A stretch of 64,000 nucleotides of DNA from Rhizomucor pusillus. Lineage: Eukaryota > Mucoromycota > Mucoromycetes > Mucorales > Lichtheimiaceae. Under the pieces are notes generated by a model. That model was not told the DNA's origin and made no database searches. It worked only from the letters and a program-made list of their open reading frames with translations. Positions 35,571 through 45,997 of the stretch are shown in pieces. The stretch lies in contig FWWN02000175.1 of NCBI GenBank assembly GCA_900175165.2, positions 33,052 through 97,051 of the forward strand, in the 5' to 3' direction. The first letter of the stretch is position 1. Every line of letters starts with the position of its first letter. The position numbers were made by a program, and so were the translations under genes.

Positions 35571-38500
35571 ATGGGTTCAGAAATCATTGTGAAAATCGAT
35601 CAGCTGTTTGCGGACACGCTTTCACCAGGTATAGCTGTCCCCGATCGTAGGTTTGGATCTAGTTGCTTAACGGAAGCAGATCACAATGTCAGGGACAAGG
35701 CAACAAAGGAACTGGAAACTTTGGCGCGCGATGACTATGTAAGTTAGGATAACAATGCGACTCGGGTACCACTTGCTCAGTATTCTGCTTGCAGACCCAG
35801 TTTGCACTGCTGACCTGTCAACAGCTCGCGAGCGCTGAAGCGGAGGAACCTATTGCTATGGCAGCCGGTTTATGCTTGAAGAATTCTCTAACGACCAGTG
35901 TACGAGATGCCAATTGTTTCGATATATCAATGAAACTTACAAATGAAGCAGGACTTTGTGCCGACTGAGGAGCAAATCTCGCGGTGGATGTGGGTCGAGC
36001 ATGGTATTCGAGAGATAATAAAGCACGGGGTAAATTATGTGATAGTCTCAAGAAAGATTTGGTCGGCTAACCTAAAATTCAAAAAAGGCTCTGGCAGGAT
36101 TGATATTACCGCGGCCGGCAGTAGCCAACACGGCGGCTCAGGTACTGTGAACACCACATATACGACGGGAGCTTGAATAGGAAACCTTACCAAAAGCATA
36201 GGTGTTAGCCGCAATAGCACACATAGAATTGCCGCTTGGTCACGGTGTCGATATTATTCCATTCCTTGTAAAGAGTGCAGAAAGTGGAGACCCAGTCATA
36301 CAGCGAGCAGCGATGCGGACGATTCGATATTTATGCGAGGGTGGTGTAAGGCATCCATCGAAATCATGATAGCGTTCGTAAGTTTCAACAGCTAACTGAA
36401 GCTATCAAGAACCCGGCAGGTCTTGCACAATACATAGGAGAACTGCTGAAAGCAGTGGTAGAGGTGGCACAGAAATCAGCATCGAGGTATGTTATGGTTA
36501 GAGCGAGACGATGGACATCAAAGTATTCACGACTAGAGGGAGCAGTGCCGAGGTGAAAGTTGCTGCTCTGAATGCATTGACCAGTGCGTTGGAATATATC
36601 AAACCGAATTTCGAGTCAGAAGTAAGATATTTTGCTCATTTGAATAGACGAGGGCATCCATCTCAAGCTCGAGATTCCACGTAGGGTCAAAGAAATTATA
36701 TTATGCAATTACTATGCGAGTCATGTCAGCATTCTTCCACAGAAGTCCAAGCTGCAGCTCTTCAATGTCTTGTTCGAGTAATGCAACTTTATTATGATAA
36801 AATGAAGCTCTATATGGATCGTGCGTTATTCCCCGTAAGTAAATGCACCGATTTTCAAGAAATTATTTAGCTATATACTAACATATATCTTAGCTTACAA
36901 TCACGAGCATGAACAGCAGCGAAGAGACTGTCTCCATGCAAGCTATAGAATTCTGGTCGACTATATGCGAGGAGGAAATTGAGATCAAAGAGACAATCCT
37001 GGATGTACGGTATACATCGCTCAGTAAATTCCTTCTCTTGCTCACGAAGAAATAGGCGGCGATGAGTGGCATGCAGCCCGATCAAATAACCTTTCAATTT
37101 GCTGAGCTGGCACTCGCGGATGTAATACCGGTTATCTTATGGCTGATGAACAAGCAAGAAGAAGAGCAGGACGAAGATGATTGGAATGTATCGATGGCTG
37201 CAGCAACGTGTCTATCCCTGTTCGCTCAATGCACAGGCAACCTTGTTATCGGACTCATAGTGCCATACGTTGAGACGAATTTGCAGAGCCATGATTGGAG
37301 GGCTCGAGAGGCAGCCGTGATGGCTTTTGGTTCAATATTGTATGGTCCAGAGGAAACGGTTTTAGCGCCGCTGATCGACCAAGTAAGTATTTTTCATCTG
37401 CATTCTTCTCCATATTCCGAGCCTATAATTATTCTGTATCTTGCCTTTGTTTTCAGGCATTACCTTTTATTATCAAGATGATGCGCGATCCGGTGGTTAT
37501 GGTTAAAGATACCGTCGCCTGGACGCTAGGGCGTATATGTGAACTAATGCCACAATGCATCAAACCGAAATTCCATCTGAAAGATTTGGTTTCTGCGCTC
37601 ATTGGTGGCCTAAATGATAATCCGCGAATCATCAACAACTGCTGCTGGGTAGGTACCTGGTAGTGCTGCTCCTTGATAGATCAAGTGTGCTAATAACACG
37701 TATTTCTCTCTAGTCACTCATAAATTTAGCAGAACAATTTGGCACAGCATCCGGCACAGGAGCGTCAACGAATCCCTTGTCTCCATACGTGGATAAATTA
37801 CTAAAGACTCTTTTCGATGTCGCTAAGAAACTTTCAGATAATCCAAGCAGCCGGACATCGGTGTATGAAGCTGCTGGAGCCGTGGTGCAGCACGCTGCCA
37901 ACGTGTGTACGCTGTCAAGTATATAAATGGAATGGCAAATTAACCCGGATTTTCTTGTTAGGATTGTGTATATAGCGTACAGTGGGCGACTAATACCACA
38001 CTGGAGAAACTAGATGCTTGTCTCATAAAAGAGGTATGTGAATATAGTTTAAAGGAAGTTTCAAACAATGCTAAGGTTAAGCGACTTTTCAGAAAGAGCT
38101 CATTGGCGGCGATGATCGCATGGAGCTTGAAGACCTGGAATCCAACTTATTAGGTTTATTGGCGGTAAGACGAACCACATGATGTGTTTATATCAGGGCA
38201 CTTAAACATTATACAAGTGCTGTATTCGAAGGCAAGGTCAACAAATCATCTCGCTTTCTGATAGCATCATGATTGTAACTACACAGCTACTCAACTCGAA
38301 GCAAACATCAGTCGCAGAGGATGCTTTCCTCGTCGTGGGTGCGCTCATCAGTGCCCTCGAGACTGAATTTCTACAATATGCAGAATCTTTTGTTCCCCAT
38401 CTCAACAATGCATTGCAGAATCTCGAGGACTACCGGCTGTGCCTGGTAGCTGTTGGAGTTATTGGCGACTTATCCAGGGCACTGGATGCTCAGGTTGCCC

Positions 38501-39238
38501 AGTACTGCCCGACATTTATGCAGCTTTTGGTGGCAGATTTACAAAGTTCCGTTCTCCATCGTTCCGTCAAGCCCGCTATCCTCTCCATATTTGGTGACAT
38601 TGCTCTCGCTATTGGAGATCAGTTCCTACCGTATTTGGAGGTTGTCACCATGGTGCTGAAGCAAGCAGGTTCTATGCAAGCCGATGAAAACAACATTGAT
38701 ATGATCGATTATGTAAATAGCCTGTATGAAGGTGTCATTGAAGCGTATATTGGTATAGTACAAGGCCTGCGAGGGTCTCAAAATGGTAAGTAATTTTCTT
38801 GAAAAAGCATAAACGTTTCAGAGATTTTGCGTAGTAATGTTCGAACAGTTTCCAAGTTTGTCCCATACCTCAGCACTGTCGTGAACTTTTTATCATCAGT
38901 CACTCGTGCGCCACATCGACCCGAATCTTTGGACAGAGCAGTCGTTGGATTATTAGGGTAAGTTGTAAAAGGATGGCTATAGTCACAGAGTATTTGTATA
39001 CTAAAACGAGATAACGCAGCGACCTGGCAGAAACATACCCTGAGGATGTGCGACGACCATTTTCAGCAACTTGGGTTTCACAGATCATACGCGAAGTAAA
39101 ATCAAACCGGCACTACAGCCAAACTACAAAAGACGTCGCACGATGGGCCAAAGAGGTAAGGCGACATGTTTCATGCATTGATTGAACTACAAGGGTTTAA
39201 TGTACCCTTCACAGATGGTCAAGCGCGCAAGCCCATAG
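35571..39238 (+). CDS. KAP95: Importin beta-1 (karyopherin Kap95)
   Basis: Nineteen exons join to 872 residues, the family length: 35571-35628, 35680-35738, 35795-35899, 35952-36029, 36088-36141, 36202-36345, 36392-36486, 36546-36621, 36685-36834, 36894-37004, 37056-37382, 37457-37648, 37714-37902, 37962-38033, 38093-38164, 38218-38785, 38849-38957, 39020-39155 and 39215-39238. Importin beta carries importin-alpha/cargo through nuclear pores and releases it on RanGTP. The protein is a chain of HEAT repeats; recognisable parts are AAGLCLKNSL, AAIAHIELPLG, RNYIMQLLCE, AIEFWSTICEEE, the acidic EEEQDEDDWN loop, MAFGSILYGPEE and VKDTVAWTLGRICEL. Every exon ends at a GT donor and the phases agree throughout. 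It is the most intron-dense gene here. Confidence 0.95.
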
Positions 39239-39750: not shown

Positions 39751-40792
39751 ATGTAAGTATTGATGATTTAGATGCTACTTTACCAACAATGATTGACATT
39801 CAAGTAGGGCTTCGGGTTACAGCAAGTCTCCGTCGCCGCCACGCCGCAGACGTCGATCGTTGTCGTACAGCCGATCGCGTTCGCCGGTACGCAGTCCTTC
39901 TCCTCGTGGACGTTCGCCGCGCAAATCGCTTCTGCCTGACGGCCACATCATTCTAGTCACCAACCTGACTCGGAACGTTACAGAGGAGCATGTTCGTGAG
40001 ATCTTTTCACAATATGGTACCATACGCGAAATTGACTTTCCATACAACACGCGATGTACGTCCTAAATAGAACTGAAGTTGCAGACTCGAATGATTGAAC
40101 ATTTTTGACTTAATTTTCTATAATCTTGCAGTGGACACGAATCGAGGCAAGGCTTACATTGAATATGAAAAGAAGGAGGATATGGAAAAAGCAATCAGCT
40201 ATATGGATGGGGTTAGTTCTTCAATAAGCGAAAAATTTGCAAGTATAGATGATCTTACGAATTTATTCATTATATAAAGGGTCAACTCGATGGTAAGCGA
40301 CTTGATGTAGTAATCTCTCGCCGAAGATCGCCTTCCCCTCCACCCCGACGTCGATGTAAGCTTCAAAACGTATTATTTTAAAGTATCATGCAAATCACTA
40401 ACTCCACGTTAGCACCATACTCGCCTCCGCGTTATAGACGCGGTCCGGGCCCACGAGGTCCTCCTTCTCGACCGCTTCCGCCTCGACGTTACGGCGGAGA
40501 CAGATACTATGGTGGCAGACGCTCGAGATCTAGAACACCGCCCCGACGTGGCCGTCGTTATTCGTCGTATTCTCGCAGTCGATCGCCCAGCCGTGGACGG
40601 AGTTACTCTCGAAGCCCTAGCTACTCTCGAAGCCGCAGCTACTCCCGCGGTCGAAGCTACTCCAGAAGCCCTAGTTATTCCAGAAGCCGAAGTTATTCAC
40701 GAAGCCCTAGTTACAGCCGTTCCCCATCTCCTCGTCGCAGACGCAGTCCAAGTTACAGCCGCGGACCTAGCCCGCCTCGTTATAAGCGTTAA
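39751..40792 (+). CDS. RNPS1-like SR-related RNA-binding protein
   Basis: Exons 39751-39752, 39808-40055, 40132-40211, 40280-40355 and 40413-40792 give 261 residues. RNPS1 joins the exon-junction/ASAP complex and influences splicing and mRNA decay. The first codon is apparently split: AT at the end of exon 1 and G at the start of exon 2, producing [15 protein letters not shown]. The single RRM includes [42 protein letters not shown] and [11 protein letters not shown]. The C-terminal 130 residues are Arg/Pro/Gly-rich and then a tandem SYSRS-type RS repeat (40560-40780). An alternative is initiation upstream from 39526 or 39535, which would add an unrelated N-terminal extension. RS phosphorylation is expected from the family. 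Confidence 0.85.
40560..40780 (+). repeat. Tandem RS-coding repeat in RNPS1-like gene
   Basis: Imperfect repeats coding [21 protein letters not shown] units, a coding minisatellite that could vary in copy number between strains. Confidence 0.8.
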
Positions 40793-40846: not shown

Positions 40847-42912
40847 TCAATCCAAGTAAATGGATAGCCGATCGACAACTTGATTCATTGATGGTCTCTG
40901 TATATTCAACCAGCATCAGAAAACCGGGACAGATGGAGACCAACGTATTAATAAAACTATCGTTACCTTTAAGGGGTTACCATTCCACATTTCTGTGATC
41001 AAAAGAAGCAGCCTTCGAGGATAGAGATTAATAAGCTTTGACAGAGGTGGACGCTCATCCTTGTCTCTGACGAGAGTGTAAATTGCGTGAACGTTTAAAT
41101 CTTGATATGGGTATCCATATTCTCCCCATGTTAGGATTTCCCAAAAGATCAGCCCGCACGCATACACCTTTGATAATTTCAGCTTGTATCATTTGCAAAA
41201 AGAAATTTATGCTTGATGCCTTACATCGACCTACCGCAATTTCGCTTGAGTTGACAGGAGTATTTCAACCTTATTTATTCGTCTTACCTTTTCCGTGTAG
41301 CTCGGATTGGATGACCAGAATTCCGGTGCTAAAGTGTGAAAGTTCGTCATTGTCTGGATGTTTACCCTATTTCCCGTAAGAGCTGGACTTGCCTTGCCAA
41401 TTCGGTGTACCGCATTGAGTATGCATAAGCGCGCTCGCCTTTGGTCTGATGCGTGCCAATCCAAAATCATTCACTTTAGCTCTGTCGTCGGCAGAAATCT
41501 AGCATTTCGGTAACGTCGGAGGCGACGATGTCAGCAATAGACATATAACCGTGCTTGTATACATACCAGAATATTCATAGATTTAAGGTCCTACATTCAA
41601 GGAGCAGTAGTTGAGTACAAAAGGGACCCGCTCCATCCACATTGAAACTTTTATGGATTGCATGACACATACCCTGTGAATAATGGATGGTCTGCAAACA
41701 TACATTTAACAATAAGATTTAGCATATGGATGGACTATTCAAATTATACATTGTCCGAGCCATCTGCTCACCGACCTTCGTCCATGCAGGTAGGAAACAC
41801 CAAAGGCTATATCGTGCATGTATCTGACCTATTTGGTAATGTCATCCGAATGTTTACTTGAAGGACCGTGTGATCTATTTGTTGCGCCTTCTCCTTTACC
41901 TGTTGCGGAAAACTCGGTTTCTGGTATCGCCGAATGACATCAAATAGATCTCCTTTTGTGCACAGCTCCGTGATGATGCATAGATGTCTTGGGTTCGTGC
42001 ACACTCCAATGAAGCGTATCACGTTCTCGTGTCGAAGCTGTCTATTTCGCTTCTCAGTTATATACATATTCCGTATCACATGTAAAAGATGAGATGCACG
42101 GAAGCATCCTAGAGAAAGCACCACTCACTTTAACACCTTGATCTCGTGCTTCATGTCCTCAAGATCCACTTCGCTAAACTGGGCAATTCGCAGCTCACCG
42201 ATCGCCACTGGTTCCTATTGTTTCTTTTTTAATTATTTTCTCACATAGAGATGCTTGTACCTTTTACTGAGCATCTCTCACGTCTTACTTACTCCTTTGT
42301 AGACGCCTGTGATCATCGGAACCATTGAGGTTAGCTAGACTGTTGTGCGACGTAACAACGCAATCTTTTTCCTTCATTTACAAGGCTGCGACTAACCTGC
42401 GTAGCAATCTTTGAAACCTCCACTTCCTAGCTTTGCACCGATCTCTAGATCGCTGTATGGAATGTCAAACTTGAGATCGTCGTCCAGAAACAGCTCTGAG
42501 AATCCACGTGAGTTTAGTTCCTCGATGCGCTGCTGCTCGGCAGTCAGCGAAAGCGTAGGAAGGTCAAGCTCGGGCGTGAAAAGCTGCGGCGTAGATGGAG
42601 CAGGTATAGGCTTCGTATTGAGTTTCTTTGGACATATCCATTGTCAGCACCAGCGTCGTCGTATCATTACAAATTGCACATGCATACCCAGAACATCAAC
42701 GCATTAATCAAGTCCGTCTTTGAGCCCTCGGTGGATATTCCTCTCTCCTGACAGTACTGTATCAAGTCTGCAAGGACCATCTTGTCAAGATCAGCATGCT
42801 CTACCCTCTGATATAGACGTTCAGATTACGTGACCAATGTCAGGGATAAAGATAGTAATTATTCTCGTACCTCCAGGGAATAATCAATGTGTCTATTGAT
42901 AGTCCTGAACAT
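40847..42912 (-). CDS. SAP-domain protein kinase, tyrosine-kinase-like fold, WNK-like lysine
   Basis: Fourteen exons (42912-42871, 42807-42688, 42625-42397, 42306-42293, 42214-42129, 42041-41900, 41828-41776, 41691-41673, 41590-41567, 41498-41393, 41328-41288, 41230-41225, 41167-40967, 40897-40847) give 377 residues. A SAP-like helix-turn-helix (MVLADLIQYCQERGI, then GSKTDLINAL) at about residues 22-52 suggests DNA/chromatin contact. The kinase domain (about 112-365) has glycine loop KLGSGGFKDCYAG, RQLRHENVIRFIGVC, IIHRDLKSMNIL, KVNDFGLARI, GTPNWQAPEFW, EKVDVYACG and NPLKRPSMNQVV, a TKL/MAP3K-like pattern. The beta-3 motif reads VAIGEL, with Gly where the VAIK lysine should be, while a lysine follows Phe in the glycine loop, as in WNK kinases. 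One intron (41329-41392) has a GC donor, and micro-exons of 6 and 14 nt are required by frame. Confidence 0.85.
41225..41230 (-). other. 6-nt micro-exon of the SAP-kinase gene
   Basis: Exon GTCGAT is bounded by GGTAG and GTAAGG and flanked by two 57-nt introns. It encodes the VD of EKVDVYACG, a near-invariant kinase subdomain IX sequence. Confidence 0.75.
42293..42306 (-). other. 14-nt micro-exon of the SAP-kinase gene
   Basis: Exon GCGTCTACAAAGGA, between ATCACAG and GTAAGT, encodes GVYKG, joining the glycine loop to EPVAIGEL. Phase 1 in, phase 0 out. Confidence 0.75.
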
Positions 42913-44897: not shown

Positions 44898-45997
44898 ATG
44901 GCAGAGAACATTAACGTGGAGGACTGGCAGGGTGTCTTTCGGACATCCCGTACAGACTATGTGCCTTCAGAGTATACAGCTTCTGAAATCGGTCCCAAAG
45001 GTAGGGTAGCAGTTATATGCTAGTAAGCATTATTCGTTCCTGACGGTCATTTTACCTATTCCAGAAGAGGAAGACTGGGACGATTGGGAGAGGGAGGATA
45101 AGTACGATGCAGATCCCAAATGCTTATTCTGTGAACAGACCTTTGAGATGCCCGAGGATGCTTTTGCACACTGCAAAGACGTTCATGGGTTTGATTTTTT
45201 GGCGGTTAAGCGGTCACTAAGTAAGGCTCTATTGCACTCTGTTTCTTTTACTGCTACATCCAATTGATAATTCTTTTCGTTTTCTTGCCAGATTTGGATT
45301 TTTACAAGTGCATAAGAATGATCAACTACATTCGTAAACAAGTATGATTGAGTTAATCAAAAGAAAAAAGATTATAATCTAATCAATTGTATAGGTACTC
45401 TCGAGACCAGATCTCGCAACCACAAAGGAGTTTGTTCTGACTGGACAGGAAGATTTCTGGGATGATGATGAATTGTTGCAACCTGTAATGGAAGACGATG
45501 CTTTGCTTTTTGGTATGAAATTGGTACATACTAGGTTCAAGATTGTTACTTATAAATCATACGTTGGTAGCATTCGAAGAACTTGAAATCGATGACGCGG
45601 AGGCCAATGAAGAGAACCAGGTTACAAAGTCCAACTGTATGTCATCATTCATCCTGATTTATAGATTTTCAAGAGGCTAATGGAGGTTTTACAGTCGACC
45701 TATCAAGCATAAAACCATCGACTGATCTGGAACGGTATTTGCTCAAGATGCTGCAGGCTGCTGAGGAAAAGAATGTGGAGTTACAACGACAGTTTGATCA
45801 ATACAAAGCGCGTGTTCAAAATACCTTCTTGAATATCTTGGCCGATGATGGAAGGTAATGCTGATGCGGATATCTTTATGCATGTATGGCGCTTACTCAA
45901 TCATCTCTATCATCACAGCGACCGCATGCTTGCACAGCTTGGTATTAGCGATCATAGGCCCACCGACACTGCAAACTTTGCAGGTTCACGACGATAG
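44898..45997 (+). CDS. PRMT3-type C2H2 zinc-finger protein lacking a methyltransferase domain
   Basis: Exons 44898-45000, 45065-45220, 45292-45341, 45395-45512, 45571-45636, 45695-45854 and 45919-45997 give 243 residues. The first 170 residues match the N-terminal region of protein arginine methyltransferase 3: acidic EEEDWDDWERE, the finger CLFCEQTFEMPEDAFAHCKD with the second His in VHGFD, NLDFYKCIRMINYIR, FWDDDELLQPVMEDDALLF and an acidic stretch. A coiled coil (RYLLKMLQAAEEKNVELQRQ) follows, and then the protein stops where PRMT3 would continue into its SAM-binding catalytic domain. No methyltransferase motif (VLDVGCGTG-like) occurs in any frame before the next gene at 46167. In PRMT3 this finger recruits ribosomal protein S2. 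Whether this is a natural short protein or a truncated gene is open. Confidence 0.75.

Follow-up and report, generated by a model that had tools for sequence, protein, structure and literature searches.

The window analysed here is a stretch of 64,000 nucleotides (nt) of Rhizomucor pusillus (assembly GCA_900175165.2, contig FWWN02000175.1, positions 33,052–97,051 of the forward strand), and on its minus strand it carries a gene for a protein kinase with affinity to the tyrosine-kinase-like (TKL) group, preceded by an N-terminal SAP domain (Table 1). In this kinase, the position of the β3 VAIK lysine (Lys72 in PKA) is occupied by Gly141, and a lysine, Lys126, is found in the glycine-rich loop at the position of PKA Gly55. 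This is the placement known from the WNK kinases, and the same pair of a loop lysine and a small β3 residue is kept in all readable members of a family of fungal and aphelid relatives.

The SAP-kinase gene of R. pusillus

Over its full length, the spliced product shows no difference from the public R. pusillus protein P0001. The splice junctions are GT-AG, bar one GC-AG intron that starts at 41392; this intron and a microexon flanked by introns are both required to yield the conserved protein. The SAP domain scored 27.9 bits against a Pfam cut-off of 23.9, which places the product among the SAP proteins, and the Pfam kinase domain covers residues 114–372 of the same polypeptide. The original prediction, made from the DNA alone, had proposed this fusion together with a lysine in the glycine loop, a glycine in the VAIK motif and intact HRD, DFG and APE motifs; the two codons were found exactly where it had placed them, and all three motifs are present in the spliced protein, as is the αC glutamate. 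In the AlphaFold model, Lys126 is predicted to be the first residue of β2, the same place as that of Lys233 in WNK1 and Lys91 in POMK.

Table 1. Positions of the SAP-kinase gene and its main features in the window
Feature	Position	Strand	Description
SAP-TKL kinase gene	40847..42912	minus	14 exons, coding sequence 1134 nt, 377 residues; spliced model
SAP domain	42697..42792	minus	residues 20–51, exon 2; Pfam PF02037, E 1.7e-6
Loop lysine codon, Lys126	42410..42412	minus	GSGGFK; PKA Gly55 position; first residue of β2 in the model
β3 codon, Gly141	42197..42199	minus	VAIG; VAIK lysine position, PKA Lys72; spliced model
αC codon, Glu159	42143..42145	minus	
HRD motif	41588..41678	minus	His234-Arg235 in exon 8 (41678–41673), catalytic Asp236 in exon 9 (41590–41588); intron splits the motif
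DFG motif	41460..41468	minus	residues 254–256, exon 10
Microexon	41225..41230	minus	6 nt; encodes Val-Asp in the DVY motif of subdomain IX; also in P0001

Conservation of the lysine exchange among the listed relatives

Three protein searches gave 436, 665 and 343 matches, and the best 120 of each were listed, amounting to 281 different proteins including P0001, which were aligned to one kinase hidden Markov model (HMM). Among those listed, 274 form a single family and 7 are canonical TKL relatives (P0156, P0157, P0164–P0168). Four apparently misannotated family members were removed before the two sites were counted (P0155, in which an intron seems to be retained behind GGFK; P0151, which is cut off ahead of the loop; P0108 and P0068, whose β3 is garbled), and eight in which either site, or both, fell in a gap were set aside (P0024, P0064, P0071, P0089, P0111, P0114, P0132 and P0137), leaving 262 members. 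Position 126 was lysine in 262/262, and position 141 was glycine in 119, alanine in 73, serine in 67 and cysteine in 3; the VAIK lysine, which is a general kinase feature and does not define the TKL group, was found in 0/262. The seven canonical relatives showed the reverse: position 126 was Gly in 4, Ser in 2 and Ala in 1, and position 141 was lysine. None of the 281 listed proteins had both lysines. A homologue with VAIG that lacks the loop lysine, the case which the original prediction had named as speaking for a pseudokinase, was looked for among the 274 listed members and none was found. Chance or a misreading of the residue pair is ruled out by this conservation and by the identical public protein. 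The combination of a small β3 residue with an invariant loop lysine is confirmed, and by position the arrangement agrees with the WNK one that had been claimed for the R. pusillus kinase.

The other catalytic residues are kept as well. The catalytic Asp236 was present in 264/265 readable members and Asn241 in 265/265; the corresponding counts were 270/271 for the DFG Asp254 and 268/269 for the αC Glu159. In an alignment of 49 of the 274 members, chosen under 80% identity, Lys126, Glu159, Asp236, Lys238, Asn241 and Asp254 were invariant, and Ser239 of the HRDxKS motif was found in at least 90%. Phe255 of DFG was conserved in 277 of the 279 readable rows of a 282-row alignment that included the window protein and the canonical relatives. 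Because the exchange is kept in all clear relatives read here, from mushrooms and moulds to aphelids, the family appears to represent a functional enzyme of ancient origin, as opposed to a defective one.

The early-diverging fungi named among the members are Mucorales, Endogone, Mortierellomycota, Glomeromycota, Calcarisporiella, Kickxellomycotina, Dimargaritales, Thamnocephalis, Basidiobolus and Massospora. The Thamnocephalis entry is P0108, one of the two garbled at β3. Basidiomycete members come from all three subphyla (Agaricomycotina, Ustilaginomycotina and Pucciniomycotina), with Cryptococcus, rusts and smuts among the organisms, and aphelid members come from Amoeboaphelidium and, by our reading of a transcript label, from Paraphelidium. 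No Ascomycota or chytrids were named among the matches listed, which does not show their absence, since many entries are unnamed and only the best 120 of each search were listed. One member, P0112 of Furculomyces boomerangus, is annotated as an RNase P p30 protein (Pfam PF01876) fused to the SAP-kinase, and this fusion may be a gene-model artefact.

The other kinases of the same genome served as a comparison, for which we picked 20 loci with near-complete N-terminal lobes from 159 own-genome kinase matches, part of which were listed. The loop lysine was found in 0/20 and the β3 lysine was kept in 18/20. The two exceptions at β3 are L040, which has a stop within the loop and whose alignment is doubtful, and L038 (G000:C106:20100-21100), which has arginine there (VAIR), a degenerate catalytic loop (HKDLRSHN) and a degraded DFG, and is likely a true pseudokinase or a pseudogene. 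DNA patterns for GxGxFK gave 0 matches in this genome; these patterns are blind across introns, and one of them needs Val where the SAP-TKL kinase gene has Cys128. Since they miss even that gene, they say little on the presence of WNK.

Relation to TKL kinases, WNK and POMK

Sequence, fold and tree all support the assignment to the TKL group that the original prediction had made. In the profile search (best 60 of 1282 rows), the top matches were CTR1, B-Raf, TNNI3K and MLT, apart from a tandem EGFR chain, and a fold search found a TKL fold match for the window kinase. WNK was absent from the 50 rows listed by each of two fold searches, which is not evidence of absence. An HMM built mainly on the family, and including the shared loop lysine, scored CTR1 at 250 bits, BRAF at 213, WNK1 at 175 and EGFR at 146. 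The seven canonical homologues scored 245–288 bits; they were themselves part of the HMM's source alignment, and only the outside sequences are therefore fair in this comparison. Compared with CTR1 and RAF-type TKL kinases, the family is alike in overall sequence and fold and in HRDLKS, DFG and APE, whereas CTR1 and RAF keep VAVK with a glycine at loop position 55.

Two trees were compared. The second, of 48 rows with 35 of the 274 members and two trait columns dropped, differs from the first (54 rows) in leaving out P0166, EGFR and eight own-genome kinases and in adding TNNI3K and three own-genome STE-like kinases. In the second tree, the family is one clade (100/99; 99/96 in the first) and joins the canonical TKLs other than BRAF (94/90), and a branch of 96/74 (not starred) parts WNK1 and the STE kinases from the family and the TKLs including BRAF. 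The branch that excludes WNK1 is weaker in the first tree (88/41). Calcarisporiella thermophila has, besides P0023, a longer member, P0120, which groups with the basidiomycete clade in the second tree (99/91), hinting at an old duplication.

WNK kinases control blood pressure; they sense chloride, which binds in their back pocket where the DLG motif forms part of the site, and they phosphorylate OSR1/SPAK-type kinases. The sequence of PDB 5w7t, from which the WNK1 motifs were read, shows DLG, HRDLKC and a loop lysine (Lys233) at PKA position 55. WNK1 thus resembles the fungal family in the GxGxFK loop and in a small non-lysine residue at β3 (Cys in WNK), and the αC Glu, HRD and APE are kept in both. 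It differs in DLG and HRDLKC, as against DFG and, with few exceptions, HRDxKS; the TKL affinity, the SAP domain and the choice of Gly, Ala or Ser, as well as Cys, at β3 are features of the fungal family. Papers are cited here by PMC number. Catalysis by WNK is reported to depend on its lysine at PKA position 55, and WNK was termed the only functional eukaryotic protein kinase family without Lys72 (PMC1821047). The same paper proposed for the CAK-chloro subfamily that the positive charge moved from position 72 to 55, as in our family; in CAK-chloro, however, the residue is Arg and not Lys, Met stands at 72, the αC Glu is lost, and the subfamily belongs to the CAK eukaryotic-like kinases (PMC1821047).

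A later and highly aberrant case of lysine migration is POMK. Its Lys91 lies at the start of β2 and Ser at β3, the latter as in 67 of our 262 members, and loss of the human counterpart of this lysine abolishes activity (PMC5142810). In POMK, however, the HRD and DFG motifs have migrated and the αC Glu is lost (PMC5142810, PMC10211241), whereas the fungal family keeps all the standard motifs; moreover, POMK phosphorylates a sugar. A double exchange of the loop and β3 residues has reportedly been made in POMK.

Fungi-specific kinases near the tyrosine kinases, named FslK, have been described (PMC3937382), and these share with our family the fungal origin and a tyrosine-kinase-like nature. FslK is a different lineage, which is recorded for Agaricomycetes and chytrids and is missing from Cryptococcus, Ustilaginomycotina and Pucciniomycotina (PMC3937382). 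Our family is present in Cryptococcus, rusts, smuts, Mucoromycota and aphelids, and membership in FslK was rejected by this distribution, the two being set apart by description only. A term search of the whole text of PMC3937382 found mention of neither lysine nor WNK.

Candidate mechanism, alternatives and function

We consider it likely that the window protein is an active Ser/Thr kinase of the TKL group, tethered by its SAP domain to DNA or chromatin, whose ATP-contacting lysine moved to β2 independently of WNK and POMK. Judged from residue conservation, a WNK-like active site in the TKL group is well supported as ancient and conserved, and it is probably active. In the proposed mechanism, Lys126 at the start of β2 would replace the lysine of the β3 site, reaching across to the α and β phosphates of ATP and pairing with Glu159 of αC, and the small residue at 141 would make room for it. 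Asp236, Asn241 and the DFG Asp254 would work as in ordinary kinases. A single exchange would have preceded the separation of the aphelid and fungal lineages listed, and the SAP domain would bind the kinase to DNA or chromatin.

The loss of the β3 lysine in all 262 readable members could also mean that the family consists of pseudokinases, that is, ATP-binding or scaffold proteins on DNA in which the loop lysine is structural or binds something else; some pseudokinases indeed bind nucleotide with altered motifs (PMC4718504). The nearly complete conservation of Asp236, Asn241, the DFG Asp and the αC Glu argues against this. Pseudokinases commonly lose one of these four residues. In addition, an invariant loop lysine combined with drift among small residues at β3 is the pattern of WNK and POMK, and we regard a pseudokinase family as clearly unlikely. 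It is very improbable, in our opinion, that another basic residue contacts the phosphate and that Lys126 serves regulation or substrate binding. Arg144 (Arg/Lys in 252/262) and Lys119 (Lys/Arg in 253/262) are nearly conserved, and in POMK the ion-pair partners can shift (PMC5142810); Lys126 is, however, the sole invariant residue among Lys and Arg in the stretch 112–149 of the 262 members, and it has the precedent of WNK and POMK.

The lysine may also have moved only once, if the family were a divergent, TKL-looking branch of WNK. We give this explanation only slight credence. It is favoured by the identical loop position in WNK1 and by the test in which a clade of WNK1 and the family was forced: the log-likelihood dropped by just 6.2–6.4, and the clade was not rejected (p of the approximately unbiased (AU) test 0.214 and 0.204). 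On the other side stand the branches that set WNK1 and the STE kinases apart from both the family and the TKLs, the HMM ranking of CTR1 and BRAF above WNK1, though EGFR ranks below it, and the DLG and HRDLKC of WNK1 as against DFG and HRDxKS. The best trees lean towards the convergence suggested in the original prediction, as WNK1 lies outside both the family and the TKLs, at weak to moderate support; the joint clade, however, survives the AU test. Independence from WNK is favoured because of the TKL affinity and of DFG instead of DLG, and it is not proven, because that clade survives; the test is limited by long branches and by the use of a single WNK sequence.

Several further observations weigh against an active, SAP-bearing TKL family with its own lysine migration. 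The first tree joins the family to the canonical TKLs weakly (74/56), in a set with the long rows of EGFR and the own-genome locus L031, and it places L031 as sister to the family at 56/0; the one WNK sequence of the trees sits on a long branch. Three members depart from the catalytic pattern, with His at Asp236 (P0035), Glu at Asp254 (P0107) and Arg at Glu159 (P0108); they were retained in the counts of the other catalytic residues, and we read them as probable gene-model errors. The Pfam SAP domain was detected (E ≤ 0.05) in only 28 of the 49 members scanned, and several listed sequences had nothing aligned at its place (for example P0121, P0122, P0126 and P0133); a SAP-like stretch aligned in many further members.

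SAP domains tether proteins to DNA or chromatin, and by analogy the SAP domain suggests the same for the kinases of this family. By eye, the N-terminal regions of two basidiomycete members, P0184 and P0262, are long, acidic and rich in Lys and Arg, with a possible extra SAP-like helix pair ahead of the SAP domain, which would suit chromatin proteins. The Laccaria protein 299583 was found as an unconventional nuclear activator in a trans-activator screen, with "TKL-ccin" as its best hit, and the authors of that screen expect false positives (PMC5604158); a Coprinopsis fruiting-body gene was also labelled TKL-ccin (PMC4082614). Neither could be mapped to the family, TKL-ccin being a label only and the Coprinopsis cinerea member, P0262, having no XP number.

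A more daring idea, possible but doubtful and drawn from analogy with WNK, is that a second family of conventional kinases, not related to WNK, shifted its ATP lysine from β3 to β2 before aphelids and fungi split, is active and DNA-tethered, and has in the vacated β3 space, guarded in every case by a small residue, a regulatory pocket that binds an ion or a metabolite, as the back pocket of WNK binds chloride. If true, fungi would have a chromatin-bound, ligand-sensing kinase.

A TKL family with standard motifs otherwise and an invariant loop lysine would offer a second, clean and independent instance of active-site migration. With it, the question of why position 55 works would become a testable comparison of β3 residues, which are Cys in WNK, Ser in POMK and Gly, Ala, Ser or Cys in the fungal family. 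It could also correct annotations that score such proteins as pseudokinases by the missing VAIK lysine alone, and it draws attention to a SAP-kinase, as yet uncharacterised, that occurs in many fungi, mushrooms and Cryptococcus among them. No account of fungal TKL kinases whose lysine has moved was found in open-access full texts, with subscription papers and supplements outside this scope. The excerpts available of PMC10211241, PMC4718504, PMC1821047, PMC3019232, PMC7586955, PMC5142810, PMC4082614, PMC10890143 and PMC5604158 contain none, and those of PMC2838846 and PMC5052723 count fungal TKLs and do not raise the moved lysine.

Three open reading frames on the plus strand near the kinase gene were read by eye only. 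The convergent neighbour (39797–40792) reads as a Tra2-like splicing factor with an RRM and Arg-Ser repeats, the frame at 38206–38793 resembles a piece of importin-beta, and the one at 45010–45267 is similar to the N-terminus of PRMT3 in its C2H2-type finger and acidic stretch.
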